Source: Deroplatys truncata
Taxonomy: Eukaryota; Arthropoda; Insecta; Mantodea; Mantidae
Length of the DNA: 64,000 nt
Reading direction: 5' to 3'
NCBI GenBank assembly: GCA_030765065.1
Contig: CM060990.1
Location: 411,255,198 to 411,319,197 of the forward strand
Part shown: positions 25,196-61,428 of the stretch, one piece after another
Layout of the letters: the number at the start of each line of letters is the position of its first letter
Numbering within the stretch: position 1 is the stretch's first letter
The notes under the pieces: model-generated
Database searches by the model: none
Told to the model about the DNA's origin: nothing
What the model saw: only the letters and a program-made list of their open reading frames with translations
Position numbers and translations under genes: made by a program

Positions 25196-26690
25196 AGAAT
25201 TATGAAAATAATAGGTCTGTTTTAGGAAATACCGCACATTACTTACTTTTTAAAATATGAGACATGTTTCGCAAGCATGTTGCTTTTATCATCACCCTGA
25301 GTTCCAACTACCTAGTAGAGAGGATGCTGACAGGGTGGCACTATTGTTCTGTTCCCTGGTGGCAACTTGATGAACCTCTTCATCAAATTATCTCCCATTG
25401 GTATATCAAAGTTGAATATGTGGTGTTTGTGCTTTAGGATAAATATATTTTCCAATGCCATAAGTTACCAGTTTTCATTGGCGTTCTTAAGCAAGACAGG
25501 CTCCACCGAGTGGGATGGCTCAGCCGGTTACATCTGTGGCTCGCATTTAGGAGGTCTCGGATTCGGTCCCCAGTGACTGCCGACTCTGACCCATGGGTTT
25601 TTCGGGGTTTTTCCTGGATCGTCAGGTGAATGCTGGAGTGGTTTCTTTCATCCCCCAAATTTCCTGTCCCTCCATTTCATTCCATTCTTCATTTCATTCC
25701 TCTTTCATCCCATTGGTCTCTTTCAGGAAATGTCGGCGATGGTGTTTCAGTGCAGCATGGCAGGGGAAAAGGATGCTCCTTGTGACTCTCTCCATCCCTC
25801 GACTTTCAGCTGGCTGTGAGGGTATCCGAACCCCCTTGAGGGGCATTGGACCCCCCTCTATGTGGGATGGAGTCCCTGGTCTGCCTGTCCATCTACCGAG
25901 GTGACTCTATCTGGAAACTTAGGGACCCTATCATTGCTCCTGGTTCCAGCCGCCCGGTGTCTCCTTTCGCCTCATCCTTCCTCCTGGGGATGCCTCCTCA
26001 TGAGGCATAGGTACAATATCCACTCTGGATTGGTGTCGAGTCCCCTCCATAGTCAGTCCAATCCAAGACAGGCTCCAGATCATATCATGACATTTTTGCC
26101 AGAAATGTGATGCAACTGTTGATTTTTCCTCTTGTTTTTGTTTGATGTATTTGAAATGTTATTTTGTCCTTATTTCCAGTTTCCTCTTGGTTTTCCAATA
26201 TAAAATTTATCGCACTGCTTGCAGTTAATTATGTAGATGCCTGATCAATTCCTTGGAGCTATTGTAATCCTTTATTTTTTAATTAAGGAAATTCTGTATT
26301 GAGTAGGTGTTCCTTGGAGCTAATGTGATGATAAATTCTTTGAAGATTTTTGAAATTTTCTGTAGAATGTTTGGTGGTACTTGCACTTTTTGCCTGCCTT
26401 GATCAAAAACATCAATGAAAACTGGAAACTAACAGCATGGGAAAAATGATTTATCCTTAAGCACAAACATCATGTGTTTAACTGTGATATACAGACAGGA
26501 GATAATTTGGCAAAGAGGTTCAACGAACCACCACCAGGGAACAACAGTGCCACCCTTACAGCATCACCTCTACAAAGCAGTCAGAACTTGGTGTGATGAT
26601 GAAAGCAACATGCTTCTGAAACATGTTCTGTATCTTAAAAAGTAAATGATATGCAGTGTTTCCTGAAACTGACTTATTTTCATAATTCTA
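25196..26690 (-). mobile_element. Penelope-like element with inverted ends, holding a SINE
   Basis: The left arm (25196-about 25445, minus orientation) and right arm (about 26410-26690, plus orientation) are inverted copies of the same 3' region, both including the end of the endonuclease ORF. A GIY-YIG remnant (GIYIINCKQCDKFYIGK) lies on the minus strand near 26190-26260. The ORF text continues across the SINE at 25506-26064 into LALENIFILKHKHHIFNFDIP. Each arm carries a hammerhead-like core (25261-25295 minus; 26593-26627 plus), with GTGATGA in place of CTGATGA. The structure is an inverted partial dimer with both 3' ends outward. No target duplication was found. Confidence 0.72.
25506..26064 (+). 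mobile_element. tRNA-headed SINE inserted in Penelope element
   Basis: Exact 13-bp duplications AAGACAGGCTCCA flank it at 25493-25505 and 26065-26077. The head has a box A-like TGGCTCAGCCGG and a box B-like GGATTCGGTCC at tRNA spacing, the internal promoter for RNA polymerase III. The body is GC-richer than its surroundings. It has no long A tail. Confidence 0.85.
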
Positions 26691-27266
26691 TATAATTTGT
26701 TGACCATATCTTACAGTATAAAAGAGGAAGAAGAGAAAAAGAGAAATAACTTCTAATTCACTCATTTCATGGCAGCTTGCAGGCTGACCAATTGACAGTG
26801 TCACAAGCATTGAATACACTTCAGGCTCTAAGTTCTAACATTTGTATCACTTTAGTCAAACTGCTGCTGCTCAGTAAAATTTATTTGTACTGTTGTTATG
26901 CTTTATGAAGTGTTACATGCATTACTAAAGCGTTACTATAATTTTCATGATGTATCTAAATTTAAGTATACAAAAAAATGTTATACATGAGTTATATGTG
27001 AAAATTGAATCATTTAGGGAAGTTAGAAGCTGATGTTTGATATCATTTTCAGACATACCTGTTCTAAAATGAGATGCTGCATGAAACCCTATCAATGAGC
27101 TAGGACTATAGAAGTGACAGTCAACAAAAGCCTAAATAGAAGAGAAGTTAATATGAGGAGCAACTAATCAAAACATAAATTTTCCATCTATGGTTCAAAT
27201 TGAATATGGAGTACTTTTTGAAAGATTACAGTGCTCTCCACACATCTGTGAAGTCACATTTATTTA
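26691..27266. other. No gene seen
   Basis: AT-rich spacer between the Penelope-like element and the hAT terminal repeat, without recognisable coding text. Confidence 0.5.
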
Positions 27267-27799
27267 AATTAGGGTTGCCATATGTCCTGAAAAAGCAGGA
27301 TCTTCCTAAATTTTAACACATGGAAAAGAGGCCTGCTTGATTTTCAAAAAATCCTCAAATGTACTGAATAATGGAGATCTGTTACCCTTGCATTTTTGTT
27401 GCAAGCTAGCGCCTAGCCATAGACATCTCGCTGTACCACTATTATGAGAACTAGTACCAAAGGGTATGATGATTGCAATTACTACATTATTGTTGACTAG
27501 CCTCAACACTGCTACTTTGTTTTTCTGCCATAATGCTGATTTTTTACTAAGATGTCACTTATAATACTTCCCATTCCTGTTGTATTCAGCCATTACAAAG
27601 AGGCACTATATGTGTCGAGCAGCATGTTTATTTTCCATAATCAAGCAAACCAAAATAATAAAGATATCTGAAAACATGTTTCTATTGTTGTTTCTCAAGT
27701 GTTACGTATGTGAGAGTGGAATTGTTGATCTGGTGACATATTGCTATGTGATTAAAAATGTCTAAAAACAGTCATTGAAATGCAATAAAGAAACGACAA

Positions 27800-29896
27800 A
27801 GGAATTTACCTCAATTAAAGGAGGAAGGCATGAGCATGAAACACTCTGTGGTGCAAGTAAGTAGACCTCTATTAGTTTATTAATAAAGAAGATAAATTAT
27901 GAATCAAGGAAAGTAGTAAAAATACTTAAGACCTTCATTTCTGATTTTCGTGCATATGTGAATATAGCTCATGGGGGTAAAGGTGGGGTTTGTAAACATT
28001 TAATGACAAAAGCTACATCAAACACTGCGCAGCTTCAAGGGTATTTCACTCAGCAAACTAGCAAAGCCAAGAATGTAGCAGCAGCTGAAGGTGTCTTTGC
28101 CTACCACAGTATGAAGCATCACATATCCTCCAATGCAGCTACTTGTAATTCTGAAATATTTTTAAAAATATTTAAGGACTCCAACATTGCCAGCAAATTC
28201 TCAAGTGCAAAAACAAAAGCTGAAGCCATTGTGAACAATAGTCTTGCACCCCCATACTATAAGTGTGTTCAAGGATTGTATTAAATATATAGAATTCCTT
28301 AGTATATCTATTGATGCTATCAACAAGCATTACCATAAGATGTTTCCAGTTGTTACTCAGTATTTTGACATGGCTAAAGGGACACAGACTAGATTAATTG
28401 AATTAATCAACTAGAAAGCGAAACCTCTCTTTCCATAGGTAGTTATTTACTGAAAACTGTAAAGATTTTCTATGTTTCAAGGAAAGCTGTTGCATTTGGA
28501 GGTGATAATATTAACACAAATTTTGGAGGGCTCCACAGAAAGGGTCAAAATAACGTGTTAAGTCAATTACAGAAAGATTTGGAATGTGGTAGCAATCTTA
28601 TTGGTGTTAGCTGTCCAGCACATATTATGCACAACACACTACATGCTGGTATTGATGTCTTAAGGGTGATGTAGAAACTCTAATTATTAAGATTTTCAGC
28701 CACTTTTCAATACCGTTAGAGTCAATACACTTAGAGAATTCTGAGATTTTGTGATACTTACCAAGGTTTGCTGTATCATTCAAAGACAAGATGGATAGGT
28801 ATATTTCCTACTATTCAAGGAATAGTTACAGTATTTGAGGCACTGAAATCATATTTTTTATCAGTTGATAACTGCCCAAAAATGTTAAAAAGTCTTTTTG
28901 AGAATCCACTTGGCAAGGCATTTCTTTATTTTGTTTTGTCACTCTCCAATGTCTTACATAACATAAATGTATAATGAACTTAGAGAGAGAGAGAGAAGCT
29001 GTATCTGTAATTGAGGTTATGAATGAATCAAATTTTGTTGCAAACATTCTTAAAGAGAGGACTAACCAAAATTTTCTGCCTCTTAATGTGAAAGAAATTT
29101 TAGAAGAAATAGATAACCCAGCCATTGTTAAGACTTTTGGACAAGAAACAAAAATTGCTATATCACTTGTCTTGATTATTTACAAAAGTGGTTATATTCT
29201 TTCACTCATCTCAAGTGTTTCAACTGGTTGTTCTTGAAGGAAGTACCAACGTGGGGTGGACATATAGAAGACACTGTTAAATTATAAGTAATAATGTAGA
29301 AGTGGTTGATAGTGAAGTATTTCAAATGAAAATGAACGAGGAGTAGGTCAGCAGCTGACGATGAGAGCAAGGGACTCTTGAAACATGTCCAGATAATTTT
29401 ACTTAAGTGAAAAGTGTAAATGAGTTTTCCTACTCCTCCTTCATTTTCACACTGTTAAATACTTATTGAAGCATGGTTACAAAGTTGATGACTCATTATT
29501 ATTCAACCAATCAGTGTGTTAAATAAACTGAATGAGACTGACTCTAACTGACAGTAATTTCATAGAAAGGCTAGCTACTGTCAAATGGGTGAACTTTTCA
29601 GTTCTTGTAAGAATAGTGAGCAATATTCAGAACTATTAAAGATTGCCCATTTCTATTTCTATTTGCCTGCCCATAATGCATGTGTGGAAAGGATTTTCTC
29701 CATGATGAATGCACAATGGACAGATGACAGGAATAGGTTAAAAATTACATCCATTGGAGCAATCCTGTTGGTTCAATATAATTTGAAAATTATGTCGTGC
29801 TTGGAATTTCATGAATATATAGTGCAAAACAACACGTTACTGAAACAGATTTCATCTTCAGAAAATCCTGACTGGTTTACGACTAAGAATGATTAA
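27800..29896 (+). pseudogene. hAT transposase (broken)
   Basis: Early text near 27935-28020 reads FRAYVNIAHGGKGGVCKHL, the zinc-finger end of this hAT group. FAYHSMKHHISSNAATC...FKDSNIASKFSSAKTKAEAIV...LAPPY follows, then KTRWIGIFPTIQGIVTVFEALKSYFLS (28768-28974). The C-terminal dimerisation domain is LPAHNACVERIFSMMNAQWTDDRNRLKI (29585-29896). The chain EDTVKY / LLKHGYKVDDSLLFNQ reads on if the 29283-29448 insert and one duplication are skipped. Several frame changes and stops show it is inactive. Confidence 0.9.
29283..29448. mobile_element. Short fold-back insert with hammerhead-like core
   Basis: The 166-bp insert is flanked by exact 12-bp duplications ACACTGTTAAAT (29271-29282 and 29449-29460). 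It holds 20-bp inverted repeats at 29328-29347 and 29429-29448 (GAAAATGAACGAGGAGTAGG with one mismatch). Between them lies CTGACGA (29355-29361), a hairpin, GAAAC (29380-29384) and GTC (29387-29389), the core order of a hammerhead ribozyme with a tiny stem III. No ORF. It interrupts the hAT transposase frame. Confidence 0.75.
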
Positions 29897-30012
29897 TAAA
29901 GCAACAAACTTACTGATAAATTTAAATATAACATTTGCAGCACTTGCACATACATGCATTGTTTCTCTGTGTATTCCATGACCACATAAAAATTAAGTAA
30001 TAAATTACAATA

Positions 30013-30583
30013 CTAATAATATAATTTTGAGTCGAACTAATACTCCATTCTCTATTTATTACTAGTATGTACCTAGAATGCATTTCATTAGGACCTTCCT
30101 AACATCATCAGCAGTTGGATTTTGATTTGGCAAACTCCCTGGTTGATTGAGACGTCCCTCATAGTGACCTGATAAACTTGAAGTTTGGGTTCTCATCAAG
30201 GTGGTGTCAAAATTGACGAGTTTTCCCTTATATTTCTTTATGAAGATCTTTACCCATGTAGATAATGCTGTTGGACCCTGAACACTTTTTAATAAATGAA
30301 TTTGCTGTTCTATATGTGGTTCGCCTTCCAAAAACAATACGCCACTGCAGCTTTGTCTATTTCTTTGTTCCTAATACTCCTAAAATGTTCTTTAAGCCTA
30401 GTATTCAGATTCCTTTTAGTTTTTCCAATGTAAAAGTCGTCACAGTCTTTGCAACTTATACACTAAACACCTGAAAAATGTATTCTAGGTAAATACTAGT
30501 AATAAATGGAGCATTGAGTATTAGTTTGACTCAAAATTATATTAATTTTGTGCTTCATTGTATCATTGTCCATACACATTAAG
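30013..30583 (-). mobile_element. Penelope-like remnant with GIY-YIG and inverted ends
   Basis: It is flanked by exact 11-bp duplications AAATTACAATA (30002-30012 and 30584-30594). A minus-strand GIY-YIG remnant reads DDFYIGK / LNTRLKEHFRSIRNKEIDKAAVAY and then IHLLKSVQGPTALSTWVKIFI (about 30200-30460). The sequence at 30018-30085 returns inverted at about 30475-30543. A hammerhead-like core lies on the minus strand at 30077-30111: CTGATGA, a perfect 6-bp stem II (TTAGGA/TCCTAA), then GAAA and GCATT. It sits in the 3' UTR of the hAT element. Confidence 0.8.
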
Positions 30584-30652
30584 AAATTACAATATGTTGG
30601 GATAGAGTCCTGAATTCTTGTCTCTCCCTTATGGCAACCCTAATTAAATTGC

Positions 30653-31787
30653 AATAAGTCCTATCCACTTGTAAAACTATAACTAGAGTGCTGAAGCAAT
30701 CCATAAATTGTCGATCAGTGCAATTGAATCAAATCACAAATTGTACAATAATAGAACAAACCTGTGTTAGTAAAAATAGTAAAACGAAATCATATTCAGA
30801 GGTGAGTTTTGTTGGGTTGGTATTATTGACAATAAATATTACTTTACTTTCATTGTTGTCCAGTTTATAACAGTCATTATTAGATATTTGTGTTGAAAAC
30901 TCACCACTAGTGAGTTGGTTATTGCTAAAAATACCGAAAACAGAGGCACCTATAAGAAAAAGAATGAAACAGAAAATGAAACAAAAGCAAGAATAAGAAG
31001 CCAGGTAATTTCTTATAATTAATTTTCAATAGTTCATAATTACATGATAACATGTGCAGCTACCTACCTACAGTGACCAATAGTACCAGTAATACAAGAA
31101 GTTATTCAGTTTACTTATTCCCACACCATTTACATGCAATTAATGGCTTTTGTTTCTGGGATTTTTCAGATATCATTAAAAAGATCCCCATCTATTGAAA
31201 TCTGAGCCTTCCTGTGAGCACAACAAGTCATATCCACTTGTAAAACTAAAAATTGAGTGCTGAAGCAATCCATAAATTGTCCATCAGTGCAATTGAATCA
31301 AATCACAAATTGTACAATAGTAGAACAAACCTGTGTTAGTAAAAATAGTAAAACGAAATCGTATTCAGAGGCAAGTTTTGTTGGGTTGGTATTATTGACA
31401 ATAAATATTACTTTACTTTCATTGTTGTCCAGTTTATAACAGTCATCATTAGATATTTGTTTTGAAAATTCACCACCAGTGAGTTGGTTATTGATAAAAA
31501 TACTGAAAACAGAGGCACCTATAAGAAAAAGGATGAAACAGAAAATGAAACAAAAACAAGAATAAGAAGCCAGGTAATTTTTTATAATTAATTTTTAATA
31601 GTTCATAATTACATGATAACATGTGCAACTACCTACTTACAGTGACCAATAGTACCAGTAATACAAGAAGTTATTCAGTTTACTTATTCCCACAGCATTT
31701 ACATGCAATTAATGGCTTTTTTCTGGGATTTTTCAGATATCATTAAAAAGATCCCCATCTATTGAAATCTGAGCCGCCCTGTGAGCA
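30653..31787. repeat. Tandem duplication of about 568 bp
   Basis: Unit 1 (about 30653-31220) and unit 2 (about 31222-31787) are nearly identical, with scattered substitutions and a 2-bp indel. The duplication starts about 10 bp after the hAT right terminus. Each unit holds the same 60-codon open frame, which has no recognisable domain and no convincing splice sites. Confidence 0.93.
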
Positions 31788-32049
31788 CTGTGAGGGATAA
31801 TTGTGATAATACAATATTCCAGTCAGTGTACTTTATAGGGTGAAAAGGGATGTTTTAGTAAAACCCAAGAAGGAAGAACAATATTAATAGATGGTGTTTA
31901 TCTTTATTAATGAAAGTGATATTACCAAAATATCAAAGTGTGGAGAAAATAAAAAAAAACTTCTGTAACTGTTTAATTACCACTTGCACTCTGGGAGGCA
32001 AGAAATTCCTGTAAGTGCAAATATTTTTTAGAAAATTATTTGGTAATTG

Positions 32050-32431
32050 GCAGCGCCGTGGCCGAGTGGTTAGACTGCTTGCCTCTCACTGAGGTGGCCG
32101 GGTTCAATCCCAGGGACCCACATGTGGGATTTGTGGTGGACAAAGCGGCATCTAGGCGGGCTTTCTCTGGGTTCTCTGGTTTCCCTCGCCATTCATTCCA
32201 CCAACTGATCCATCATCACCTTTCCTTTCATCCATTTCACCATCATTTCGTTTCATCTACTTCCTTCCTTCCATACCAGGCATCGAGCTGATCACCCATC
32301 CTGGATATTCTGTCTGATCCATGAGTGTCTGCTCCTCGATGGGCCTCTTGACCCCAGGCACCCGCCTGTAAGTCCTGGGTGGTGGAAGTCCTACATAAGA
32401 GGAGGTTAAACAGAGAAAGAAGAAGCAGAAG
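32050..32431 (+). mobile_element. tRNA-headed SINE with 12-bp target duplications
   Basis: It is flanked by ATTTGGTAATTG at 32038-32049 and 32432-32443. The head reads GCCGTGGCCGAGTGGTTAGA with box A TGGCCGAGTGG and box B GGGTTCAATCCC at tRNA-like spacing, close to a class II tRNA (Ser/Leu type). A tRNA-unrelated body and an AGAAG-rich tail follow. This is a mobile repeat rather than a tRNA gene, because the fold is not completed and direct repeats flank it. Confidence 0.9.
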
Positions 32432-32443
32432 ATTTGGTAATTG

Positions 32444-33050
32444 TGTTTCTTATATAATGACAATTGCCAAAGCTATCCAGAAAAGGAAAGTTGTGCAAAA
32501 TAAACATGAAGGTGACCACTGTTGGAAAGTTTCAAGCTAAAATATAAAAAGTAACACAGTTTTTGTTAAAATTGAGAGTAGGTGAAAGCCATTATTCAAG
32601 AAACAAAAGCAAGAGGCTTTACCTACATTGAGTATCACAATGTATTACTCATGTAAACTGCTTTAGTTCCATACAATTTAAAAGCAAAAAACTCTTTTTT
32701 TACAAAATACCTTGCTTTTGGAACCCCAGCAAACAATAAATGCAGCTACTACCTCTGGTTGTATCATGAAATAATGCTGTTGTGTTGTTGATATAACAAA
32801 ATAGCAGGAATTAATAGCAGAGTTGCAGATACACAAAATTTGAGCTAACAGTTCCGCAAGCTCTTAAAGGAGGAACCTTACCACAGCAAAATGTTTGTCT
32901 TTGATAAGTTGCAAGTACAGGTGCTCCCAATATTGTTGATAAGTAGGGCTTATTATTCACGTCACATATCTCAGGATAGCTTGCGCGATAAACATTGAAA
33001 ATAAAGATCCAACGTTCTACTTACGAATGGAAATGCAAGAAAGGAGGTGT
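32444..33050. other. No gene seen
   Basis: AT-rich sequence without recognisable coding text or repeats. Confidence 0.5.
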
Positions 33051-33059
33051 TCTGATGAA

Positions 33060-33780
33060 GTTGCTTCACTTCTCACCAACTTTTTAAGTAGCTCACATTT
33101 TGACACTTCCATCACTACCATGAGGTTTTTGCTGATAATTATAGTGGAAGAATAAACATCAGTATGTCATGCATGTTTACACATTTTGGATGCTAAGGAT
33201 TTGCCACCACATATAACACAAATCTCAGCGTTCATTTTTAACCACCAATTGTATATTCAGCCATGTAGAAAAAGAGGTAAGAAAACTCCAGAAATTTTGA
33301 ATGCTACTGATTATGAGAAAGTGTACAGAAGTGTAGGAAACACTAGAGTTCTGGGAAAAGACTGGATGGTGAAAGATAACAAAGAACTTACGGAAGTTTT
33401 GAAAAAAAATATTGATTGAATAAGTGATATGAAAAGTATTTTGTTGCAGAAAGGTGAAACTGCAAACAGAAGAGATGTTAAAATCAAAACTGAAGCAACT
33501 AATCATTTGACTTATCTCCCAAACAATTTCAGATCCATTACAAAGTGAGGTAAAAGATGCCATAGAAATGCCAAATAAAGAACTAATCCAGGTCCAGTTA
33601 ATTGTGTTATGGAAGAAAAGAAGGCAGATATAAAAAATCTGTTAGTCACAAGATTTGGAGAAACTTGGAAGAAGTTGAACTACAGTTCTTCAAAGAATCA
33701 CTTACCCTTCCTCCCATCTCATTACAAGAATCCAATGAAAGTAATGTTATGTGTAACTGTTTGAAAGAAGATAGTGCACT
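33060..33780 (+). pseudogene. Possible DUF7869-type protein remnant
   Basis: One frame near 33100-33155 reads HEVFADNYSGRINIS, like the (S/A)DNC-GQN-N motif of insect DUF7869 proteins. Further on, DWMVKDNKELTEVLKKN (about 33360-33415) and EEKKADIKNLLVTRFGETWKKLNY (about 33610-33690) fit the C-terminal part of the same proteins. Frames change repeatedly. The match is by motif order only, so it is tentative. It is cut at its 3' side by a fold-back insert. Confidence 0.42.
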
Positions 33781-33796
33781 TATTTAGTACTTTAAT

Positions 33797-34030
33797 TTAA
33801 AACCATTTTGGGGATCATAATTAAGCTTTTATAAATGCAGAAATTAAGATTTTTATTATTCTAGCTTCACTTTTTCACTAGAACTTACTGGGACATATTT
33901 CAGAAACTGTTGTCTCCATCATCAGAATGATCTACTGCCATTATCCAGGCTGATGATGGAGACCCAAAACATGACCCAGTAAGTTCTGATGAAAAAGTGA
34001 AGCTAGAATAAGAAAAATCTTAATTTGTGC
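33797..34030. mobile_element. Fold-back insert with hammerhead-like core
   Basis: It is flanked by exact 15-bp duplications ATTTAGTACTTTAAT (33782-33796 and 34031-34045). The arms at about 33838-33900 and 33968-34030 are inverted copies (left arm segment TTCTAGCTTCACTTTTTCA). On the minus strand 33892-33925 holds CTGATGA, a hairpin, GAAA and GTC. A degraded partner starts with CTGATGA at 33950 on the plus strand. No ORF. Confidence 0.8.
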
Positions 34031-34045
34031 ATTTAGTACTTTAAT

Positions 34046-36700: not shown

Positions 36701-36719
36701 ATATTTTTGGAATTTGAGA

Positions 36720-38530: not shown

Positions 38531-38539
38531 AAAGAAAGA

Positions 38540-38928: not shown

Positions 38929-38971
<43 letters not shown>

Positions 38972-43700: not shown

Positions 43701-43709
43701 TGTCATAAC

Positions 43710-46580: not shown

Positions 46581-48330
46581 GTAGCAGAAACCTGGTTAAG
46601 GGAGGTAAATATAGAGGTGAAGGATTATACATATGTTGGAATAGAAGGGGAGGGGATAGCAAGGAAGGAAAGAGCTTCTGGGGAGTGGGTCTTTCTGTAA
46701 GACAATCCATAGGGAAAGTAATAAGGGAGTGGGTCTTTCTGTAAGACAATCCATAGGGAAAGTAATAAGAGATACTTGGTCCAGGATTAAAAATGTTTTG
46801 TGGATTATATTGGAAGATAAACTGATAAATGAGAAAACCATGTGTTTAGGTGTAGTGTACAATGCACCTGCTCCCTCGCAATACCATAATCCTGAATTGC
46901 TGAAGGCGCTAGAGAGAGATATAAATAGGTTAAGAGAGAAGTACGGGAATACGGAAATAATAATAATAGGGGATTTTAATATCAGAATAGGTGAAGGGGA
47001 TGTGAATATAGAGTGCGATATGTTTGTTGGAAATGAAAGATGTTCTAGAAGGGAGCAGTTCAGGCGAAGTAAAGATAAGTGTATTGATAAGTCAAGTGAA
47101 GGTTTTATCGAAGTTTGTGAAGTGAACGCTTTAGATATATTGAACGGTAAATATGGAGATGATTTGGAGGGAGAGTTTACTTTTGTTAATATGAACGGGC
47201 AAAGTGTCATTGATTATATATTATGGCCGATTAGCAAGGCGAATACAATAAGAAACTTTAAGATATTAAATTTTGTATCTAATAGTTCCCACTTCCCGCT
47301 GGTAGTGGAGATTCAAAGGCGATCAGAGGAAGTAAGGGAAGTTAGGCGGGAATGGGGAAAGAATACTAAGCAATATATTGAATTTAAATGGAGGGAGGAA
47401 CAGAGAGTAGAATTTAAACTAACATTAGATTCTAAGCATGGTCAAATATGTCAACAGGGAATGAGTTTTATGATAAGGAACCAGGGAATAGCAAATGCAA
47501 CCAATATTTTTAATATGTTAATGCAAAGAGCAGGGGATGGGATGAGAAGGGGGAGGGGCAGGGTAATAAAGGAAATAGGGTGGTATGATGAGGAATGCAA
47601 AATAACAAAAAAGGTGGTGAAACAGGCATTAGTAAGATGGAAAAAGAGAGGGGGTGAGGAAGATAAGAAGGAATACCTAAAGAGTAGGAATTTGTATAAT
47701 GCACTATTAGAAGAAAAGAAACAAGAATGGAGAAGTAAAGAACAGAGTAATCTGATTAAAGTTTTAAGGAAGAACAATGCCAGCAAGGTGTGGAGAGTGT
47801 TAAAATCCATGTATAACAAATGGTTAGTTAAACCAAATATCACTTCAGCAGATTGGATGGAGTATTTTAAAATGTTATTTGAGGAGGAGTGTTTTATTAA
47901 GATGAAACCAGTGATGGATTTTGGAGTGGGATACATAGATATATTAGATAGTGAAGTAAGCGATGAGGAGGTAGTGAAACAAGTGAAGGCAATGAAAAAT
48001 AATAAGGCAATGGGTATTGATGGAATTCCTCCTGAGTTTATCAAAGAATGGTGTAGTAATGAGACTAGAGTAAAGATGTTTACAGATTTGTTTAATGTAA
48101 TAAAAACCAAGGGGTATGTACTGGAGCATTGGAGGAAAGCAATAATTCATCCTATATACAAAGGCAAGGGGAGTGTTGATAAGCCTAATAATTATAGGGG
48201 AATAGCATTACTTTCAAATGTTGGAAAGATTTTCACAGGGATTTTAGCAAATAGCATACAAAACTGGGTAGAGGAATATAATATCCTCTCGGAGTTTCAA
48301 ATGAGTTTCGTAAGAGGAGAAGAACGGTAG
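46581..48330 (+). pseudogene. LINE endonuclease and RT N-terminus
   Basis: AP-type endonuclease motifs are VAETWL (46581), YNAPAPSQ, IIIGDFNIRIGEGD (the catalytic Asp/Asn), DYILW, and NSSHFPLV (the SDH position with SSH instead). RT fingers follow with MKNNKAMGIDGIPPEFIKE, HWRKAIIHPIYKGKG and NNYRGIALLSNVGKIFTGILA. The frame is lost near 48330, where the copy at 1-1285 continues with FRKGRRTIDN. The start is set by the first motif, because the 5' end is truncated. Confidence 0.9.
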
Positions 48331-48344
48331 ATAACTTATTCATA

Positions 48345-49484
48345 ATGAAAACTCTAGTGGATAAGTATTTAAAAGAAAAAAGGGGAAAATTGTACATGGC
48401 ATTTGTTGATTTGGAGAAAGCGTATGACCGCATTGATTTAAATTTGTTGTGGCACAAGCTCTTGAGGAAGGGAGTAAGTCAACAGATGGTGAATTTATTT
48501 AAAGCTCTATACAAGGAGAACACATTTTGTGTGAAAGTAGGAGTAGGATTGGTGACAAAAGAAGTAAACCAAAGGAAGGGATTACTACAAGGATGTAAGC
48601 TAAGTCCAGTGTTATTTAATCTGTATATTGATGATATCCTCACTGAGATAGGAAGGAACAATAATTGGTTGCCTGTGATAAATAAGGTATCAATTCCTGG
48701 GTTATTAGTTGCTGATGATTTAGTGATAGGATCAGTTTCAACGATTGGTCTGAAGCAGTCCCTACAGCAAATGAATAAATACTGTGATGAATGGAATCTG
48801 AAAGTAAATCAAGAGAAGACTCAAATTATAGTGTTTAAGAATGGTGCCAAACTGGGCAAGTATGAAAAGTGGAAGAATGGAGAGAAGGAATATAAAGTGG
48901 TCAGAGATTGTATATACCTAGGGGTTAAAATGGATGGGGTTGGAAAATGGGAGAAACAGAAGAAACTGGTATTGACGAAGGGGAAAGGGGCAATGTCAGC
49001 AATTAGAGGGTGCAAATATAGAATACCAGATATAAATTTTAAATGGCTAGAGAAAATATATAACACAGTAGTTGAAGCAAAAATGTTATATGGAAGTGAA
49101 ATATGGGGAGTAGAACGAGGCTGGGAAGAGATAGATATGGTACATAGGAGTTTTTGTAGAGAAGTTTTGGGCCTGCCAAATGCTACAGCTAAGGAATTTG
49201 CTCTAATTGAAATGCAGAGAGTGGGGAGAAAAGGGGTAATAATGGAGAGAGCTCTTAAATATTGGCACAGACTATTAAATTTAGAAGAGAAGAACTTGTT
49301 GAGGCAGTGTTTGGAATTTCAAGAAAGGAACTTAAAGAAAAATGGGTGGAGTTATAGTATACAAACTAATTTGGAAAATAGTAGTCTGGGAGAAATTTGG
49401 AGAAGGAGGGAAAATAATGTTAAGGGTTTTTGGAAAGAAGCTAGGCAGAGGTTTGAAGATATAGAGATACAAAATTTTTTTTAG
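48345..49484 (+). pseudogene. LINE RT palm and thumb
   Basis: MAFVDLEKAYDRIDLNLLW gives the first catalytic Asp, then QGCKLSPVLFNLYIDDIL. The catalytic box reads LVADDLVIGS where related copies have FADD, with both Asps kept. LKVNQEKTQIIVF and VRDCIYLGVKMDG follow, then the thumb YGSEIWGVERGWEEIDMVHR and the WRRRENNVKGFW segment shared with the copy at 1-1285. It stops at 49484. The zinc motif follows in another frame. Confidence 0.92.
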
Positions 49485-49559
49485 TAACATTGGGAAGAAA
49501 AGTTCCTTGGAATCATATATATTCATAAAAAATGTATGGGCTAGAGAACAGTATGTGGA

Positions 49560-49872: not shown

Positions 49873-50139
49873 TTTCATTATGTGATGTTAAGTTATGTAA
49901 TTATATTATCATTATTATAATATTAGTATTATTAGATTATTATTTTGGTATTACTACTATTATTGTATTATTATTATTATTATTATTTTATGTTATAATT
50001 AAGGAATGTAATATGGGTAGAATATGGCAAGATAACAGCTTGGGCTGATGTATAGCCATATTCCAAGGAAGATTGCTAGCACAAATAAATAAATAAATAA
50101 ATAAATAAAAAGATATGTATATTGTTTTATTTATAGATC

Positions 50140-52090: not shown

Positions 52091-52099
52091 ATGGATTAA

Positions 52100-55000
52100 T
52101 GTAATACATGAAAATGGGACAAAATATTGTATTACATAGTTATGGTTCGTTCCAAACCTGATATTAATGAGAGTCAAAGGGATATAAGTGACATCCTTGG
52201 AGGCAGAGAGATGTAAGTCTAACTAGATTATTGGTAAAAACATTACTGAGCGTAACATTCTGAATTTAATTCACTGATATTGTATGTATAGCTTCATTAA
52301 TAACCATTACATATGATGGTTATTGTAGAAATGTAACAAATGAACATAGAATTTTAAATCTGATACAAACTTTGAAGCTCATTTTCTCAGAATCATGACT
52401 TTGTCACTTACACTCTTCTGCTTTTAACCGCCTCTTTTGCCAATATAAAATGAGGAGCATTGAAGCAAAAAGCACTAAGTGCATAATAAAAATTTTTCAG
52501 AAGAGAGGAAATACTAATATCTCCTTAGCTTAATGGCGGTTTTTAAAGCTCTTCATACCTAACTGTAGTGCAAATGTCACTTTCCTAAATACTTTTATAA
52601 TTAAAATCATTTTTTGTTTAATATCACATTAATAATGAAAAATGTTTTGGACTTAGTGCATTTTGAAGCAATTATATTAAAGATGATGAACATTAAGAAA
52701 ATTATATTTAATGATGTTTTAATGAATAATTTCAATCCTGCTTACAAAAAAAGGTTTTATGCTCTGCTTTGTGCATTTTTTTTTGGAGGGGGAGTAAGTT
52801 CAAATTTCATTTCTCTCTGTACTTCAACAATGCCCATTTCTTCTTACAAATAGTTACATTCTTCTTCATTCTGGTTTTTGCTACAGAATGCAGACCCTTT
52901 TTCCATAACCTCCACTAAAACTATAGCTCAGACTCACATCTCTATTCACTCCCAAATCTCTCTTATAAGAGCGTATCAACATCCTTTTCTTTGCTTCATT
53001 GACTGTGCTTTGGAGTGTTAAACCCTTGACTTGTGGTATACACTCAAACTTAACTTCCATTTCAAAGGAGATATGAATGGATTAGAGGGATGGCAAAAAC
53101 TATTAGGTTTGCATCTTTATCGCTGTATCTGAAGGATAATACAAGAAAAGAGAACTTACTGCTTCTCATTATATTTTTAAAATTAGCATGAAAAATAAAG
53201 CAACACAGAAAGTCATCTCAGTATCCTTTGCAGGTATTCCACTGCATTTATTTGCACGAGAGTAACAATAAAAATGCATTTTAATGACAAGGCACAAGCT
53301 CTTTATCTCATTTTTACTTCTTTGCTAATCTTCGTTTCCGCATTTTCATTCTTTTTCTGCTATCTTTACTGTTGCCTGGAGGAACAATTATTTCCTTTTT
53401 CATGTTGTAATACTTCAGTAGATGTACTATTAATGCTTCCTTGACACAGCTCCCTATCTCAGAGCTTGAAGTAAGCACATTCATTTTCTTCATTCATTCA
53501 TTTTGCATGATGTAATATTGTTAACAACATCCGAGGAAGCGATATCTAATATTGCTTGATAGCAACACATGCATTTCTAGTTCCACAGAATGCAAACACA
53601 ACAGTCACATATACACAGTGTCACATTAGCAATTCTTCGGTTCTGTAAACTGGTGAATTTTGTTCCATTCATCTCCATGGACCAAGCACTTTCTAAACCA
53701 AACACTGTATTTCAAAGCCATTTTATGATAGGAGGGAGTGCCATTTGAAAAAAAAAAAAAAACTGATTACACAGATTGATTCAGCACTATCAAAATAGGG
53801 AAATTGTATCAAAAAGCATTTTGTCTGTGATTGGACTAAGTGCATTTTGTTCTGATGATCCTCAAATACAGCCAAAAGTGATGCTTAGCTTTAGTAGGTT
53901 TATCCTTATTGGTTACAACTTTGATAAATATGTGTTTTTGTTTCATTCAAAATCTTAACAATAATGGAATAATTTGCATTTTAACCAACTTGTGTTGAGT
54001 TAAATTGCCAGTTTTATTTAAACCGCTATTGGCTGAAGTATAGCAACCAGGTATGCTTTAAATGGCTGGTGGTGAATGGGTTAAAACAAATAGCAACAGG
54101 TACCTTGAAACGGCTGATATCACAAAGAAAATTATTTGAAATAAATTGTGTGTTCTAGAATGCCAAAAGAGGTCAAGTTGACCCCTAAGAAGAAACTAAT
54201 CTGTACTTTTAGAAGAAAAAACTAATTCAACACAATTTCCTCCAGTGACTTTTATTTATTTTATGAGTTCATTCTACTAACCAAAAATGAATTGCTTCCT
54301 GATATTCAGTTGTAAATGTCATTTATTTTAAATGCCTGGAGGAGTCATACTGATTCCTTTATGCAATACTATGGTTTTTTCATACTTGACAAACTAAATG
54401 TGTTTTATTTTATATAACTGGCAAGTAAATCTATATCAAAGGTTACAATATACAACAACAATGCTTATGTTTAGAAATTATAGGAACAAAGCCCTTTCAC
54501 CAGACATGCCATTCCTTGTTCAACTCCGTTGTAAGTAAGAAATTGTACTGAAGAGAAGTAAGAAACTCTAAGATGAAACAACATGATAATAGGCATCCCA
54601 TATGAGGAGATAAAATAGTTTCAGAACTGTTTCTTGAGGATAAATTGCTTAGAATAATGTGATTATAATATTGAAACACTGTATTTTATTACTAGGGATC
54701 AAACTGATCACTTTCAGGCATTCTAGTGTTAAAGAGATCTACATTTTTTTGTGCAGCAAGTTTCTATCTATCTCTTATGGTTTACTAGTAATACAAAATT
54801 ATACAAAATTCCTTCCGAATGAAGATGACTTCATAGGCTATTCTCAGAAAAGTCAAGAAATGCATTTTATGTACCATGTGAATATCGTAAATATCATAAA
54901 AATAATCCTGTAAAATAAAATAATAGAATAAAATCCTAAAATAATTTTAATCAAAATCAGTAAGGTTATTTTTGAGAACATCAGCAATTTTGAAAAGCTT

Positions 55001-55140
55001 TCCATGTAAATGGTAGTTTATGTGGGGGGGGGGATTTTCTTGAAAATATTTGTGCCACATCCTCGGAAAATACTGAACTTAACTATGAAGTTTGGAATTT
55101 ATCCAACATTCTGATTTTTATACATGCATGCATGCACACA
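52100..55140. other. No gene recognised
   Basis: AT-rich. A minus-strand stretch at about 53330-53700 looks somewhat coding (TKFTSLQNRRIANV, and KKEIIVPPGNSKDSRKRMKMRKRRL near its end) but matches no family I know and has stops. An A-run lies at 53748-53762 and a G-run near 55023-55033. Confidence 0.45.
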
Positions 55141-56109
55141 CACTGTTCTACAAATGCTTCTTTTGGATTCGGGGGCCTCATTATATGCTTATAAACAGCT
55201 AGTTGATCTTGCTAATATGTTCAACTCCAAATTTCAATAAATGAACCAACAAGAGTAATCGATACTACTACAACTATTATAGATCATATTTTAACAAACT
55301 TACCTTTGGAACAGTATCATACAACTGTAATAAAAAGTCACTTATCAGATCATTTTGCATTGCAAATACAAATCACTTTTAGAATACCAGTATTACAAAA
55401 TCTCAACAAAATAGTGATGGATATTAATAATGCTAATGTAATGGCTCTTTGTGCTATGTTGCAAAACGAGCAATGAGTAAAAATTTATAATGAAAAGGAT
55501 GTTAATAGGAAATGGGAACATTTTATAGCATATGTAGCTATTACTTGGATACTGCTTGTCCATTAAAAAGTAAGAAAATAAAACAAAACACAGGAAATCA
55601 ATGGATTAATAAAGATATAATTATAGCAAAAGCAAAACTGAAACATTATTATGATAAGTATAGAATTACAAAACTATATAAAGATAAATAAACATTAACA
55701 AGCTTTAAAAGAAATTGCAGAAAATTAATAAAACAATCTAAAACAGAATACACAAAACATGTAATTGAAAAATAAAATAATGTTATAAAAACCGCATGGA
55801 ATCTTATAAATAATGAATATGGTAAAGGCAAAAGTCAGCACAAAAATATTGAAATAATTAGAGGTAATGTCATAATTACAGATTCCTGCAGAAATAAGTA
55901 CTCTAATTAATACTGGCTTTATTCAAAATATTAATACTCTACCAAGTAAAACAAAATACCACTTTAAATTGCATAAACCTAAATAAACATAGTATCTCCA
56001 TGATGATAGCTTGAGTCACACTTTTTTACACTCACCTTCACTAATTAAAAGTTGTATAAAACAGAAACCTTTTCGAGGACATTCATCCTCATCATCAGCA
56101 ACTGGGTGA

Positions 56110-56541
56110 CTAAAAGTCTCTTTCTCCCATATCCTCTTCTTCCTTTTCCTGCGGATTCTGAACCTGTTGCCATCTGGTGTTGGGGGCACAAAGTTTTAAA
56201 CCATAGTTCACAGACGGGATTTCAAAATTAATGACATTGCCATTTTTGATGATGTGTATTTTTTCCCAGATGTTCAATTCTATTGGTGTGGTGAGGGGTT
56301 TTAATAATTTTATACTTTGGCCAATGTTGTGGTTTTCTGTCCAAAAATGGTGTGATACAGTGGATTTCTCTATTTGTTTTAGTTTTATGTTCCTTTGGTG
56401 TTCCTTAAGTCTGGTTTCCAAGTTTCTTTTTGTTTGTCCTATGTAGTATTTCTCACATTCATCGCAATTAATCTGGTAAATTCCGGATTTTAATGTGTTT
56501 GGGATTGTATTTTTGAGAGGTGTGTTTAGCAAGTTCTTCAA
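56110..56541 (-). CDS. GIY-YIG endonuclease of Penelope element (left copy)
   Basis: Open frame of 143 codons. SGIYQINCDECEKYYIGQTKRNLETRLKEHQ holds the GIY...YIG pair and the Arg of the fold, preceded by LLNTPLKNTIPN. The C-terminal SHHFWTENHNI and the Glu-bearing NIWEKIHIIKN segment are present. It is the C-terminal domain of the RT protein and nicks target DNA. The open frame is intact here but cut off from the RT by a stop near 56600. Confidence 0.9.
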   Translation of the reverse strand: MKNLLNTPLKNTIPNTLKSGIYQINCDECEKYYIGQTKRNLETRLKEHQRNIKLKQIEKSTVSHHFWTENHNIGQSIKLLKPLTTPIELNIWEKIHIIKNGNVINFEIPSVNYGLKLCAPNTRWQQVQNPQEKEEEDMGERDF

Positions 56542-56602
56542 GCTGAATTTGTTTTGTGGAGCTAGTTTTATGTTAAATTTGTTGAAGATTCATTCAAATT
56601 TT

Positions 56603-57870
56603 CTAAAGGCCCAAGGGTGGTTTGTGAATTTCTTGTATTTCCAATTTGTGTTTGAGAGAGGTGTTAGTGGTGGTATGTGAAATTGCCTTGAGTTTCTTCT
56701 TCTTGTTTATCATGTTCCTTATGAGATCTGAGTTGAATCCATTAGTTACTATTATCTCTATATGTTGTTGTTCTTTTAAAAATTCTTCTTTGTTCAAAGG
56801 GACACTATGTAACCGGTGGATCAGATTTCTAAAGGCGGCTAGTTGGTGTGAAGTTGGGTTGCAAGCATTTTTCTTTGTATAATTGTCCACATGTGTAGGT
56901 TTCCTATGTATACCAAATTTAAAGTCATTTTGATCTCTAGTTATAATGAGGTCCAGGAAGGGTAAGGTGTTGTTCTCTTCAATTTCAATTGTGAATTTAA
57001 TTCTGCTGTCCTGCAGGTCCAACAGTTTCAAAGCATCTTCTGTTAATTTCTGGAGTATGATGGCAAAAATTCCATCAACATATCTCCGTCAAAATTTGTA
57101 TATGTGAGAGAAAGCTTTCACTATGTGGATTTCAAGGTGGCTCATACATAGTTCTGCCAGAATGGGGGACGGTGGACTTCCCATTGCTAATCCTTTTGAT
57201 TGTTTGTAGAATTTATTATTAAATCTGAAGAAGTTGTGTCTAGTACATAATTCTATACGGTTAATGATATCTATTTCTGTGGAGTTTATTGTAGTCTGAT
57301 TCAACCATTTTCTGAGTAGTGTACAAATTTTTTCTATGGGAATACTAGTGAAAAGTGCTTTGATGTCAAACGATACCATTATGTGGTTTTTTGGGATGTT
57401 GTAGTTCTGTAAGTGGTTTATTAATTCCGAGGAGTTCTCAATTCCCAGGTTTTTAAACTTTTTGTAGGCTTTCAGTTTGTTTACTAACCACTTAGCAATG
57501 TGGTAGGTAGGTGAGTTGATGCAACTGATAATGGGTCTCATGCTATTGTCATCTTTGTATACTTTTGGTAAGCAGTATAATCTTGGCAAGGTGGGGTTAG
57601 CAGGTTTTAGATTGTATTTTTCAGTTGTTGCTAGGGTGTTGTTAACAGAGAGAGCCTTATTTACTAAATTCATGCATGTGGTTAAAGGGTTCTTGGAGAT
57701 TTCTTCATAGTCCGGGCTATCTAACATCTGGTTTACTCTATGGTTATAGTCATCCAGTTCCAGGATTACAAGAGAGTTGCCTTTATCTGCTTTCAGGTAT
57801 ACCTCTGATTTTTTGTTTAGACTTCTAATTATTTTATTGTAGTAATTATTTTGTATTCTACCAGATACAG
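56603..57870 (-). pseudogene. Penelope RT
   Basis: Reading downwards from about 57870: RIQNNYYNKIIRSL, KADKGNSLVILELDDYN and LPRLYCLPKVYKDDNSMRPIISCINSPTYHIAKWL. MVSFDIKALFTSIPIE follows with the first catalytic Asp, then KGLAMGSPPSPILAELCMSHLE. The YVDD region near 57089 is broken by a stop and shift. IKFTIEIEENNTLPFLDLIITR and the thumb HRKPTHVDNY...NACNPTSHQLAAFRNLIHRL (56603-57031) complete it. The open frame extends past 57870 into the inverted arm and this extra N-terminus is an artefact of the inversion. Confidence 0.92.
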
Positions 57871-58077
57871 TAACTAATGGATTCAACTCAGATCTCATAA
57901 GGAACATGATAAACAAGAAGAAGAAACTCAAGGCAATTTCACATACCACCACTAACACCTCTCTCAAACACAAATTGGAAATACAAGAAATTCACAGACC
58001 ACCCTTGGGCCTTTAGAAAATTTGAACGTATCATCAACAAATTTAACATAAGACTAGCTCCACAAATCAAATTCAGC

Positions 58078-58540
58078 TTGAAGAACTTGCTAAACACACC
58101 TCTCAAAAATACTATCCCAAACACATTAAAATCCGGAATTTACCAGATTAATTGTGATGAATGCGAGAAACACTACATAGGAAAAACAAAAAGAAACTTG
58201 GAAACCAGACTTAAGGAACACCAAAAGGAACATAGAACTAAACCAAATAGAGAAATCTGCTGTATCACTCCAATTTTGGACAGAAAACCACAACATTGGC
58301 CAAAGTATAAAATTATTAAAACCCCTCACCGCACCAATAGAATTGAACATCTGGGAAAAAATACACATCATCAAAAATGGCAACATCATTAATTTTGAAA
58401 TCCCGTCTGTGAACAATGTGTTAAAACTTTGTGCCCCCAACACCAGATGGCAACAGGTTCAGAATCCACAGGAAGAGGAAGAAGAGGATACGGGAGAAAG
58501 AGGTCACCCAGTCGCTGACGATGAGGACGAATGCCCTTGA
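58078..58540 (+). pseudogene. GIY-YIG endonuclease, inverted right copy
   Basis: It nearly repeats the left copy: SGIYQINCDECEKHYIGKTKRNLETRLKEHQ, then a shift near 58255, and NIWEKIHIIKNGNIINFEIPSVNNVLKLCAPNTRWQQ in another frame (58343-58540). It proves that the element contains two copies of its 3' half in inverted orientation. Confidence 0.92.
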
Positions 58541-60475
58541 AAATGTTTCTGTTTTATACAACTTTTAATTAGTGAAGGTGAGTGTAAAAAAGTGTGACTC
58601 AAGCTACCATCATGAAGGATACTTCACTGTTAATAAGTGCTTCTGTTTTTAATCTTTATAGTATCTCTAATTTGATGTTCCTTTCAGAGATACCTGAAGA
58701 AGAGCTTTTAAACATGATAAATAAAATGAAAACTAAAAATTCAATGAGCAAAGATGGAATCTCAACCATTCTTTTAAAACAGTATGCTCCCAGCATATTA
58801 AAACCATTAATAAAATTGATCAATGCAAGTATAAATTCATGAATATACCCTAACTGTTTAAAAAAATTCTATTGTAAAATCCTTGTATAAAAATGGTGAT
58901 AAGCACTGAACAGAGAATTATCGTACAATAACATTGATCTTGTCACTTTCAAAAGTAATGGAAAAAAATCATTGCTAATCAATGCATTCATAGAAAAACA
59001 CAAGATTTTAAATAACTTTCAACGTGGTTTTAGGAAAGGGAGATCAAAGAAAGATGCAATAACAGAAATAGTTGAATATCTTATTGATAGCTTAGAAAAT
59101 AGGGAACAAAATAGTTGCATATTTTTCAAGCTAAGTAAGGCTTTTGATTGCATAGACCATGAAATATTACTAAATAAACTACAACAGTATGGGATTCATG
59201 GAGTACCATTTAAACTAATAGGTTCACACTTGCGTGGCAGAACATGTTGAAATTATGTATAAAAGTAATCGGTAAATAAAGGAGTACTACTCAAATATAC
59301 ATACCATAAAATATGGCATACCACAGGGCTCAGTATTAGAGCCCTTGCTATTCATAATATACATGAATGATATACCGTTGACACAAAATGGGAAAATTAT
59401 TGCATATGAGATGACACTTCTATAGTAAACACCAACGAAAGCTTACAGAAGCTAGATACTTATACAAAGCAAAATATAAAACAAATTGTGGAGTTTTTTA
59501 AGCTAAAAAACCTGCACATTAATGTAAAGAAAACAGGATTCATGAACTTTCAGACAATTCAAAACAGAAATGAAACCCAACTAAATGTTAATATAAACGA
59601 TGAAGAAATTAATGACGGGTAAACAATTCTAACTTTTTAGGAATAATGGGACAAACAAATAGATAAAGTCTGCAATAAAGTAAGTTGAAGTATATTCTTA
59701 TTAAAATGAATGGCAAAAATCGTTGATATAAACATATTAATGAGTATCTATTATGGATTAATATACACACATTTATTATATGGAATTACAGTTTGTGACA
59801 AAGTGCTACTAAGTACACCAAAAGACTTTCTATACTACAAAAAGAGCAATTAGGGTAATGGTAAGTCTAAAGCCACAGGAATCTTGCAGAAATGATTTCA
59901 AAAAACTAAATATTCTTACTTTGTACTCTCTGTGTATCTTTGAGGTAATAATGTATCTAAAACATAGTGAAAATCATACAAAAATTAACAGCCAGATTCA
60001 CGACCTTTTCACTAGAGTTAAAAATTTCACTTTTCACACATTTTCATATAACTTCAAATAGATTACAAATGTTCAAGATGAAACCCACTGCTACCACTTC
60101 TATATTTTTTTAATAAACTACTAATACGTATTCAACAAATACAAAATAATAAACAATTTAAAAGGGAACTAAAAAAGTATATGATTCAAAGATGATATTA
60201 TTCAATAGACAAATTATTAAATTTTAGTATTGTTACGCTTTTTGTAGTATACATTATTAAATTTTTCAATTAGATAAAACTCTGAACATATTAGCTTAAG
60301 GACAAACTTTGTACATACATTTTCTTTGTAATAGCCTGCAAAAGTAAGATTGTGTCTAGGTAGAAATTAATGTATTGTATTGTATAATGTAACTTCTTTT
60401 ATACTTAGCCTTTTCTTGACAATGCCATGAATTCATGTAATTTTAATCGGCAAATAAATAAATTAAATTAAATAA

Positions 60476-60560
60476 ACCGTTATGGACAGATCCATTCTGC
60501 TGAGTCATACTGTCTCCCACACATTATGGACAGAATGGTTCTGCCAATTTCTGCAAGCAG
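60476..60560 (+). repeat. Repeat shared with 42430-42520
   Basis: Carries CCGTTATGGACAGA and TTATGGACAGAATGGTTC units as at 42430. It directly follows the LINE tail, so the LINE may have inserted into a copy of this repeat. Confidence 0.5.
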
Positions 60561-61193
60561 TTATAAACTGGGCAGACTTTTCTAATCTTTCTGTCTTTGG
60601 GATGTAATTAACTGAAGCTGCAGTGTATCAATCATAAGCTACACCTCTCACATGCATAATACTTCATGAAATTGTATGTTATGTTTATACCTGAAACATG
60701 CTGATAATATTGGTACACTTCTATGGATTTAATGATGATGTAAGAGTTCTTGTTGCTGCTTACTTTGCTTCTAAATGAGTTGAATATGGTTGTTTTAGCA
60801 TATTGACATCAACTATGGCTTGTAGACAATATTTGCTCAGATTTCAGAATGAAAAAATTCTCTACCAAGGTCATGGAAGGGCATAGCCAATGCAGAAGTA
60901 CCATTTATTTATTTCTTTGTTTATACTGATGTCAGCAAGCGCCTTCATATGATTCATGCAGGTTTATACTAGCATATCTCACTTTGCAAACAAGGATGAA
61001 AGACACAATGTAGAAACATTTAGCCTAATATCAATGCATTGTCTCAAGTTACAAATAGTTGAGATCCCATTTTCATTTATCTTCTGTAGCATACAATTCA
61101 TAAGGAATTAAAGTAATGAGCTAGATTTTTTAATCATGCTATACACAGTGTTCAAAACAAAACATTCCATAAAGAAGTAAATTAATTACAAAC
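60561..61193. other. No gene seen
   Basis: AT-rich spacer without recognisable coding text. Confidence 0.5.
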
Positions 61194-61205
61194 ATAGTAA
61201 CCTGT

Positions 61206-61428
61206 ATAAAACTAATAATTAAAATGAAGTGTTTAAAACAGTGGAACATGTCAATAAGATGTTAAAACACTGGTCAGCAGATTAAAAACACTTGTTGCTC
61301 CACTTACTTAAAATTCTTACTCAAACATATTTCAAAGAGCACGTCTCTTCGAAACAGGTTTGAGTAAGAATTTTAAGTAAGTGGAGCAACAAGTGTTTTT
61401 AATCTGCTGACCAGTGTTTAAACATCTT
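61206..61428. mobile_element. Palindromic fold-back insert
   Basis: Flanked by exact 12-bp duplications ATAGTAACCTGT (61194-61205 and 61429-61440). Positions 61254-61430 form a near-perfect palindrome with arms of about 80 bp and almost no spacer (centre near 61342). The right arm carries a stem (AAGAG/CTCTT), GAAAC (61351-61355) and GTT, the second half of a hammerhead-like core. The CTGANGA half is absent, as if two 3' tails had been joined head to head. No ORF. Confidence 0.88.

Follow-up and report, generated by a model that had tools for sequence, protein, structure and literature searches.

How do Penelope-like elements (PLEs) come to lie in a genome as two inverted pieces joined head to head, and what are the short copies of this form that encode no protein? 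The question is raised by a stretch of 64,000 nucleotides of contig CM060990.1 (positions 411,255,198 to 411,319,197) of the mantis Deroplatys truncata, hereafter the window, in a 4.29-Gb genome of 818 contigs. The window holds six such insertions, labelled F1 to F6, starting at positions 25196, 29283, 30013, 33797, 55999 and 61206. An original prediction, made from the sequence of the window, attributed all six to one process, such as self-cleaving RNA multimers joined during reverse transcription, and saw retrozyme-like passengers in the coding-free ones. We find that target-primed reverse transcription from both cut strands, with joining of the two cDNAs, is the best explanation, with a probability of about three in four, and that the coding-free copies are truncated members of coding families.

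Six fold-back insertions and their families

Inverted arms are present in all six insertions, as had been predicted, the inverted end of F2 being only 20 bp long, and several patterns are shared. First, exact target site duplications (TSDs) flank F2 to F6, and the five predicted duplications of 10–15 bp were all recovered; for F1 an exact flanking duplication of at least 8 bp was sought and none was found. Secondly, 39–50 nt lacking a partner in the opposite arm, the Penelope 'tail', are present at exactly one end of each of F2 to F6, with 0–4 such nt at the opposite end. Thirdly, the 3′ ends face outward wherever coding sequence survives, again as predicted: the reverse transcriptase (RT) and GIY-YIG frames of F5 point outward in both arms, and the endonuclease (EN) remnants of F1 and F3 agree. 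Pfam searches of F5 match RVT_1 (E=2.4e-11) and, once in each arm, GIY-YIG (E=3.8e-7 and 6.9e-7), which bears out the proposed Penelope relationship. Judged by sequence, the six insertions are several families of endonuclease-type (GIY-YIG) PLEs.

F1 (25196–26690) is an old head-to-head insertion with arms at 25196–25501 and 26392–26689 that are about 78% complementary, and contains a GIY-YIG remnant near 26060–26244 on the minus strand (tblastn). It is split by a SINE-like insert (25505–26063) with its own flanking direct repeat, CAAGACAGGCTCCA, located by eye. F2 (29283–29448) is a coding-free fold-back with its tail at the left end (29283–29327) and a tail-less right end, flanked by the 12-bp TSD ACACTGTTAAAT (29271–29282 and 29449–29460). 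F3 (30013–30583) encloses a GIY-YIG remnant between head-to-head arms and has its tail at the right end (30545–30583) and an 11-bp TSD, AAATTACAATA (30002–30012 and 30584–30594). F4 (33797–34030), coding-free, has its tail at the left end (33797–33836) and the 15-bp TSD ATTTAGTACTTTAAT (33782–33796 and 34031–34045). F5 (55999–58657) is a coding copy, with a long arm on the minus strand (55999–57868) containing RT and GIY-YIG, a short arm on the plus strand (57869–58657) containing GIY-YIG, a tail at the right end (58615–58657) and a 10-bp TSD, ATAGTATCTC (55989–55998 and 58658–58667). F6 (61206–61428) is a coding-free, near-perfect fold-back whose joint lies inside a hammerhead stem II; its tail is at the left end (61206–61255) and its 12-bp TSD is ATAGTAACCTGT (61194–61205 and 61429–61440). 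A tail was also sought for F1 to the left of 25196, where 28 of 44 positions match an F2 tail; 400 window positions give 23.1 on average and up to 34, and this candidate was not established.

Searches of the animal's own genome with F6, F5, F4 and F2 each scored 40 of 563 to 1328 candidates; 30 loci each were fetched for F6, F5 and F4, 20 of the 39 listed places for F2, and 5 and then 20 additional short pieces for F5. RT or EN sequence is present in the fetched stretch at 9 of 30 F6 loci (L005 and L012 being second views of L001 and L002, and the coding piece of L017 lying outside the pair), at 20 of 30 F4 loci (counting L086, where the best coding match has 82% identity to F5 and may belong to another family) and at 9 of 20 F2 loci. 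The F6 relative L026 matches the coding F6 copy L025 (1645 nt) over the whole length at 88%. Because their families also include RT or GIY-YIG copies, the window copies without coding sequence belong to coding families and are truncated in both arms; they are not the retrozyme-like passengers that had been proposed.

One tailed and one tail-less end in TSD-flanked pairs

The division of the tail between the two ends was examined outside the window, at 110 loci (34 F5, 27 F6, 29 F4 and 20 F2). Using a script, we mapped 3′ ends, decided from their identity to the tail whether each was tailed or tail-less, joined opposite ends into pairs and looked for a TSD; the F5 reference was taken from L045, replacing the window arm, which has a small deletion beside the AGT motif described below. 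Random comparisons to the tail give mean identities of 0.51–0.53 and maxima of 0.69–0.71 (200 trials each), and about 2.5% of 400 mismatched flank pairings yield a TSD. The script made 58 head-to-head pair calls, 45 of them with a TSD (median 13 bp), and in all 45 of these one end is tailed and the other tail-less (15 F5, 16 F6, 8 F4 and 6 F2). The tail-less ends of L039, L057 and L011 fall in the script's ambiguous band of identity; nevertheless, the TSD lies at the tail-less boundary in each. The five window copies with a TSD follow the same rule, and L063 and L072 are by eye the two ends of one more, uncounted insertion, one end tail-less and the other with a deleted tail, with AGCATATTAA in common.

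If start sites were chosen independently at the two ends, at most half of the pairs should be one-tailed; the two start sites thus appear to be used one per strand. In the parts of the PLE literature that we searched, older reviews excluded, no count or statement of coupling for tailed and tail-less ends was found, and the one-tail rule, together with the accumulation of inner ends described below, seems to be new in this detail.

We note that in the 45 pairs the bases immediately outside the tailed end are mostly A (30, 26 and 27 of 45 at positions 1, 2 and 3) and that the tail-less side is T/A-rich, a possible strand-specific cut preference.

The two arms of an insertion are also more alike than arms of different insertions. 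In a comparison of 43 pairs, two of them window copies, the sharing of non-majority variants is three to five times higher within insertions than between them (F5, 1.27 vs 0.315; F6, 0.53 vs 0.101; F4, 0.25 vs 0.082; F2, 0.4 vs 0.107), and both cDNAs of an insertion therefore probably derive from one RNA or one source lineage. The junctions between the arms are varied: the arms overlap by 1 nt or more in 13 of the 45 pairs and abut in 3, and they are separated by 1–10 nt in 14 and by more in 15. Microhomology was considered as a signature of joining, and it is not a clear one.

The tail and no-tail sites may be bracketed by a stem of seven bases, in which AGTGRAG, preceding the no-tail site, pairs with CTYCACT in the tail. 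This stem occurs in F2, F4, F5 and F6 and has the counterpart AATGGAG/CTTCATT in F3. In 13 natural copies 90.8% of alignment cells pair, compared to 87.3% in shuffles (1 of 500 as high) and 32–62% when the stem is slid; two pairs have double changes, a number reached by 46 of 500 shuffles. Judged by its length, the stem does not exceed chance expectation in F5, F4 or F2 and barely does so in F6. Its common position and the two double-change pairs are suggestive of a real stem.

Conserved hammerhead-like cores

The original prediction placed hammerhead-like cores (CTGANGA, a hairpin and GAAA) near the ends of most of the insertions and proposed checking them with covariance models. The Rfam hammerhead models give no match in the window, either at the gathering score or at E≤10, and nothing above the gathering threshold in six loci outside it; an Rfam search of the own genome was uninformative, as its controls were silent too. 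A simple core descriptor finds eight sites in the window (40 first-order Markov sequences average 2.0 and never exceed 6), and six of the eight lie inside F1, F2, F4 and F5, all facing outward. A fitting model, R1, was built from 19 copies at loci outside the window (7 F6, 5 F2, 4 F4, 2 F7 and 1 F8, the last two being further Penelope families met in the flanks of fetched loci). R1 makes 22 matches in the window up to E=5, of which the best ten (E=6.5e-17 to 0.046) all lie within the six insertions, including F1, F3 and F5, families that were absent from its training set; the other twelve have E≥0.4. The lack of any hammerhead model match, which had been named as a refutation, is therefore seen with Rfam and not with a model that fits.

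These ten matches comprise both arms of F1 (25261–25294, minus strand, E=2.5e-6; 26594–26627, plus, E=8e-9), F2 (29347–29397, plus, E=6.5e-17), the left arm of F3 (30068–30119, minus, E=3.8e-5), the left arm of F4 (33884–33933, minus, E=1.9e-9) and a degenerate core in its right arm (33942–33983, plus, E=1.1e-5), both arms of F5 (56056–56106, minus, E=5.2e-5; 58507–58557, plus, E=0.0083), and two overlapping 3′ halves in F6 (61316–61368, E=2.7e-5 on the plus strand and 0.046 on the minus). The predicted cores are thus present in the insertions with a qualification for F6, which keeps only the 3′ half and has no CTGANGA; its relatives have an intact core and a coding region.

In the 19-copy alignment, which has the order CTGANGA, stem II, GAAA and NUH, the core is invariant except for the N of CTGANGA. 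Stem II is paired in 89.5% of cells, four of its five pairs are changed on both sides, and 36 cells in the alignment are changed on both sides, compared to 13.8 in shuffles, none of 500 reaching 36. Two further measures, pairs altered at both positions (7 vs 5.8 in shuffles, equalled by 124 of 500) and further pair types (12 vs 14.9), are not above the shuffles. Stem I had been described as pairing poorly, and it does so in several families; in the alignment 72.7% of its cells are paired over three pairs. By eye, a stem III of two pairs is kept in the aligned F2, F4, F6, F7 and F8 copies and not in F5. On the strength of the alignment and the window matches the hammerhead-like cores are real and conserved, and self-cleavage is predicted only.

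Inner ends accumulate at an AGT motif

In F2, F4, F5 and F6 an AGT lies 12–14 nt 5′ of the CTGANGA core (CCAGTAGG, GCAGTGAA, TTAGTCAC and TCAGTCGG, by eye; in the window F2 at about 29342). Two F7 copies have AGTCGA at 14 and 15 nt, and F1 has AGT at 14 nt in both arms, also by eye. We take this motif to resemble the arthropod initiator. Of 155 inner ends mapped in F2, F4, F5 and F6, 89 lie within −100 to +47 of the A of AGT, and 23 of these are at −3 to +4, compared to 4.8 expected (P=2.5e-10 for a uniform distribution). The predicted hammerhead cut has 9 of the 155 inner ends within about 3 nt (5 F5, 1 F6, 1 F4 and 2 F2); four of the five in F5, identified by arm lengths, are L111–L114, which were fetched because both arms lie close together. 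A later F5 query that began at the predicted cut gives, by eye, about 6 of 35 readable copies (from 38 non-window places) at AGT and 6 of 35 near the cut. With only those nine ends near it, the hammerhead cut was set aside as the main template end as a general rule, though it may still hold for F5.

We infer that AGT may be the 5′ end of the RNA, which would be reached by run-off when reverse transcription starts in the 5′ repeat. Alternatively, the enzyme could stop before the folded hammerhead, an explanation compatible with the conservation of stem II and with the presence of other inner ends between AGT and the predicted cut. We consider this unlikely by the reasoning that the enzyme arrives from the 3′ side of the ribozyme, such that a stop is expected 3′ of the core rather than 12–15 nt 5′ of it.

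A model of insertion by two-strand priming

In the model that we favour, an enzyme of the element would cut both target strands about 12–13 bp apart, and both 3′ ends would prime reverse transcription of element RNA, with the 'tail' site used on one strand and, on the other, the 'no-tail' site, about 40–50 nt nearer the RNA 5′ end. Each cDNA would be of variable length, extending deep into the coding region or just to the RNA 5′ end at the initiator-like AGT, 12–15 nt before the hammerhead, and the joining of the two cDNAs would yield a head-to-head insert with a target duplication; coding-free fold-backs would be those in which both cDNAs are short. Two-strand target-primed reverse transcription accounts for the outward 3′ ends, the single duplication, the unequal arms and the varied junctions, and the one-tail rule implies that the two starts are coupled. 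A purified PLE of the anole cuts and extends both strands from an internal start, and two start sites delimit its tail (PMC11167929). The ribozyme has no required part in two-strand priming.

Several points weigh against this reading. The 13 pair calls without a TSD comprise ten one-tailed pairs (among them a second call in L086), the two-tailed L020, the tail-less L070, a call that rests on an 18-nt weak match at the left end, and the unclassified L041. The F6 query carried one tail, which biases that search to tailed copies; the F5, F4 and F2 queries were tail-free, and these families alone give 29 one-tailed pairs of 29. The counted pairs are restricted to those with ends matching the no-tail or the tail site, and the 20 F2 places, as well as five later F5 places, were picked with a preference for both arms in view. 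More than 10 nt are unassigned at 15 of the 45 junctions. The inner ends at AGT number 8 of 45 in F5, 8 of 44 in F6, 4 of 40 in F4 and 3 of 26 in F2, and the F5 share may be inflated, as the first F5 query started next to AGT and favoured arms reaching it; F3, F8 and the decayed copy at 17420 show no such AGT by eye, and the deduction of an RNA start draws on the inner ends and an initiator-like motif. Finally, the start site of the anole PLE does not differ between the strands in vitro (PMC11167929), such that the one-per-strand use seen here must come from a coupling not displayed in that assay.

A more specific version of two-strand priming is possible, though we hold it only tentatively. 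Here the priming would be coupled with a fixed division, the tail site serving one strand and the no-tail site the other on the same folded RNA 3′ module bracketed by the AGTGRAG/CTYCACT stem; the RNA would begin 12–15 nt before the hammerhead, so that the ribozyme would be the structure with which the transcript opens, and 'strong-stop' cDNAs initiated in the 5′ repeat would account for a large class of the coding-free fold-backs.

Among other routes, self-priming was proposed for rotifer Penelope elements (PMC3846280): one cDNA, or an antisense RNA, would fold on itself at a palindrome, for example stem II, and would then be copied. The junction does lie in the stem II palindrome in the window F6, in L002 and in L004 (with an 18-nt overlap in L004). 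However, a single cDNA copied after folding on itself would be expected to carry the same 3′ end on both sides, and the ends differ in 45 of 45 TSD-flanked pairs; junction positions also vary, and arm lengths are unequal within a copy. We regard self-priming as improbable.

Still less probable is the originally predicted route, in which RNA multimers that cleave themselves would be linked head to head while they are reverse transcribed and inserted once, the coding-free copies being retrozyme-like passengers. In its favour, a whole or partial hammerhead-like core is present in all six insertions, cells changed on both sides are in excess (36 vs 13.8 in shuffles), and in F5 six inner ends (L111–L114, L117 and L120 of the 35 copies, by eye) lie at the predicted cut or within about 6 nt of it. 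Against it, coding copies exist in the families to which the coding-free ones belong, the inner ends near the predicted cut are 9 of 155 compared to 23 at AGT, and the two arms end at different points, tailed and tail-less, in 45 of 45 TSD-flanked pairs. In the anole element, the one PLE tested in vitro, insertion is normal when the ribozyme is mutated (PMC11167929), and animal retrozymes are tandem repeats arranged head to tail, with hammerheads of the canonical type I (PMC7229834). The idea of one process for coding and coding-free copies itself stands; the multimers are not supported. Independent insertions lying head to head by chance, for which the two-tailed L020 without a TSD may be a single case, are very improbable, as one TSD surrounds the whole unit in 45 of 58 pair calls against a null of about 2.5% and the arms of an insertion share variants.

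Relationship to known elements

Earlier publications on endonuclease-type PLEs describe head-to-head inverted repeats, TSDs, a 3′ tail that is optional, and minimal hammerheads. In twin priming of L1, inverted 5′ parts arise from a second priming event at one target; that second priming takes place within the RNA, and just one end of the insertion is a 3′ end. The insertions described here would be similar in having a second priming event at one target, and differ in having a 3′ end on either outer side. Cervera and De la Pena reportedly described the minimal type I hammerheads of PLEs in 2014. As summarized in a review (PMC6155905), they have a core with a short stem II and almost no stem III, like those described here, and no clear difference was found.

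The Penelope/Poseidon elements and Pen2/Pen3 of Adineta vaga (PMC3846280) are alike in RT and GIY-YIG domains, head-to-head inverted pseudo-long terminal repeats (pLTRs), TSDs, there of 8–10 bp, a tail, there of 31 bp and optionally at one inverted pLTR, and AT-rich targets. Relative to these elements, the window families are distinguished by many very short coding-free copies, by a one-tail rule counted in 45 pairs and by the accumulation of inner ends at one motif. The Poseidon element PAc of Anolis carolinensis (PMC11167929) shares cutting and extension of both strands, an internal start, a tail between two start sites and a hammerhead near the start of the open reading frame; it differs in that its start site does not vary between the strands in vitro, whereas here each insertion has one site per end. 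Animal non-LTR retrozymes are similarly short, non-coding and hammerhead-bearing with TSDs of more than 4 bp (PMC7229834). The copies described here are head-to-head fragments of coding elements, and the head-to-tail tandem repeat of a non-coding unit that marks a retrozyme is absent from the window families.

Other features of the window and of related loci

A seventh, decayed Penelope copy, absent from the original list, lies at 17420–18690 on the minus strand, with EN and RT remnants detected by tblastn and borders placed by eye; it has no inverted partner, no inverted repeat longer than 28 nt being found within 15500–19500. The segment 34775–35984 has inverted ends of about 99 bp and an interior like a mariner-type transposase remnant, and is by eye apparently a different element. 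A LINE-like element with long frames and a strong G skew occupies 46660–49484 on the plus strand; Exo_endo_phos_2 is recognized in its first frame and RT by eye only.

Outside the window, L023:1944–2388 and G000:C2:122693359–122694020 contain zigzag arrays of short Penelope pieces in alternating orientation, with units of about 111 and 71 nt. At L024:1501–1800 an F6 left arm is followed directly by an outward-facing F8 hammerhead, a possible mixed-family insertion; no target duplication was found there, and it was not retained as a two-family chimera.

Implications

The insertion route of Penelope elements, which are relatives of telomerase, is a long-standing question, and the genomic copies described here yield sharp predictions: that both strands are primed, that each uses one start site, and that the template has its 5′ end at AGT. 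The short palindromic coding-free inserts would be explained without a new class of element, and the two quantitative regularities, the one-tail rule and the accumulation of inner ends at AGT, make the insertion mechanism of PLEs testable in a published in vitro system.

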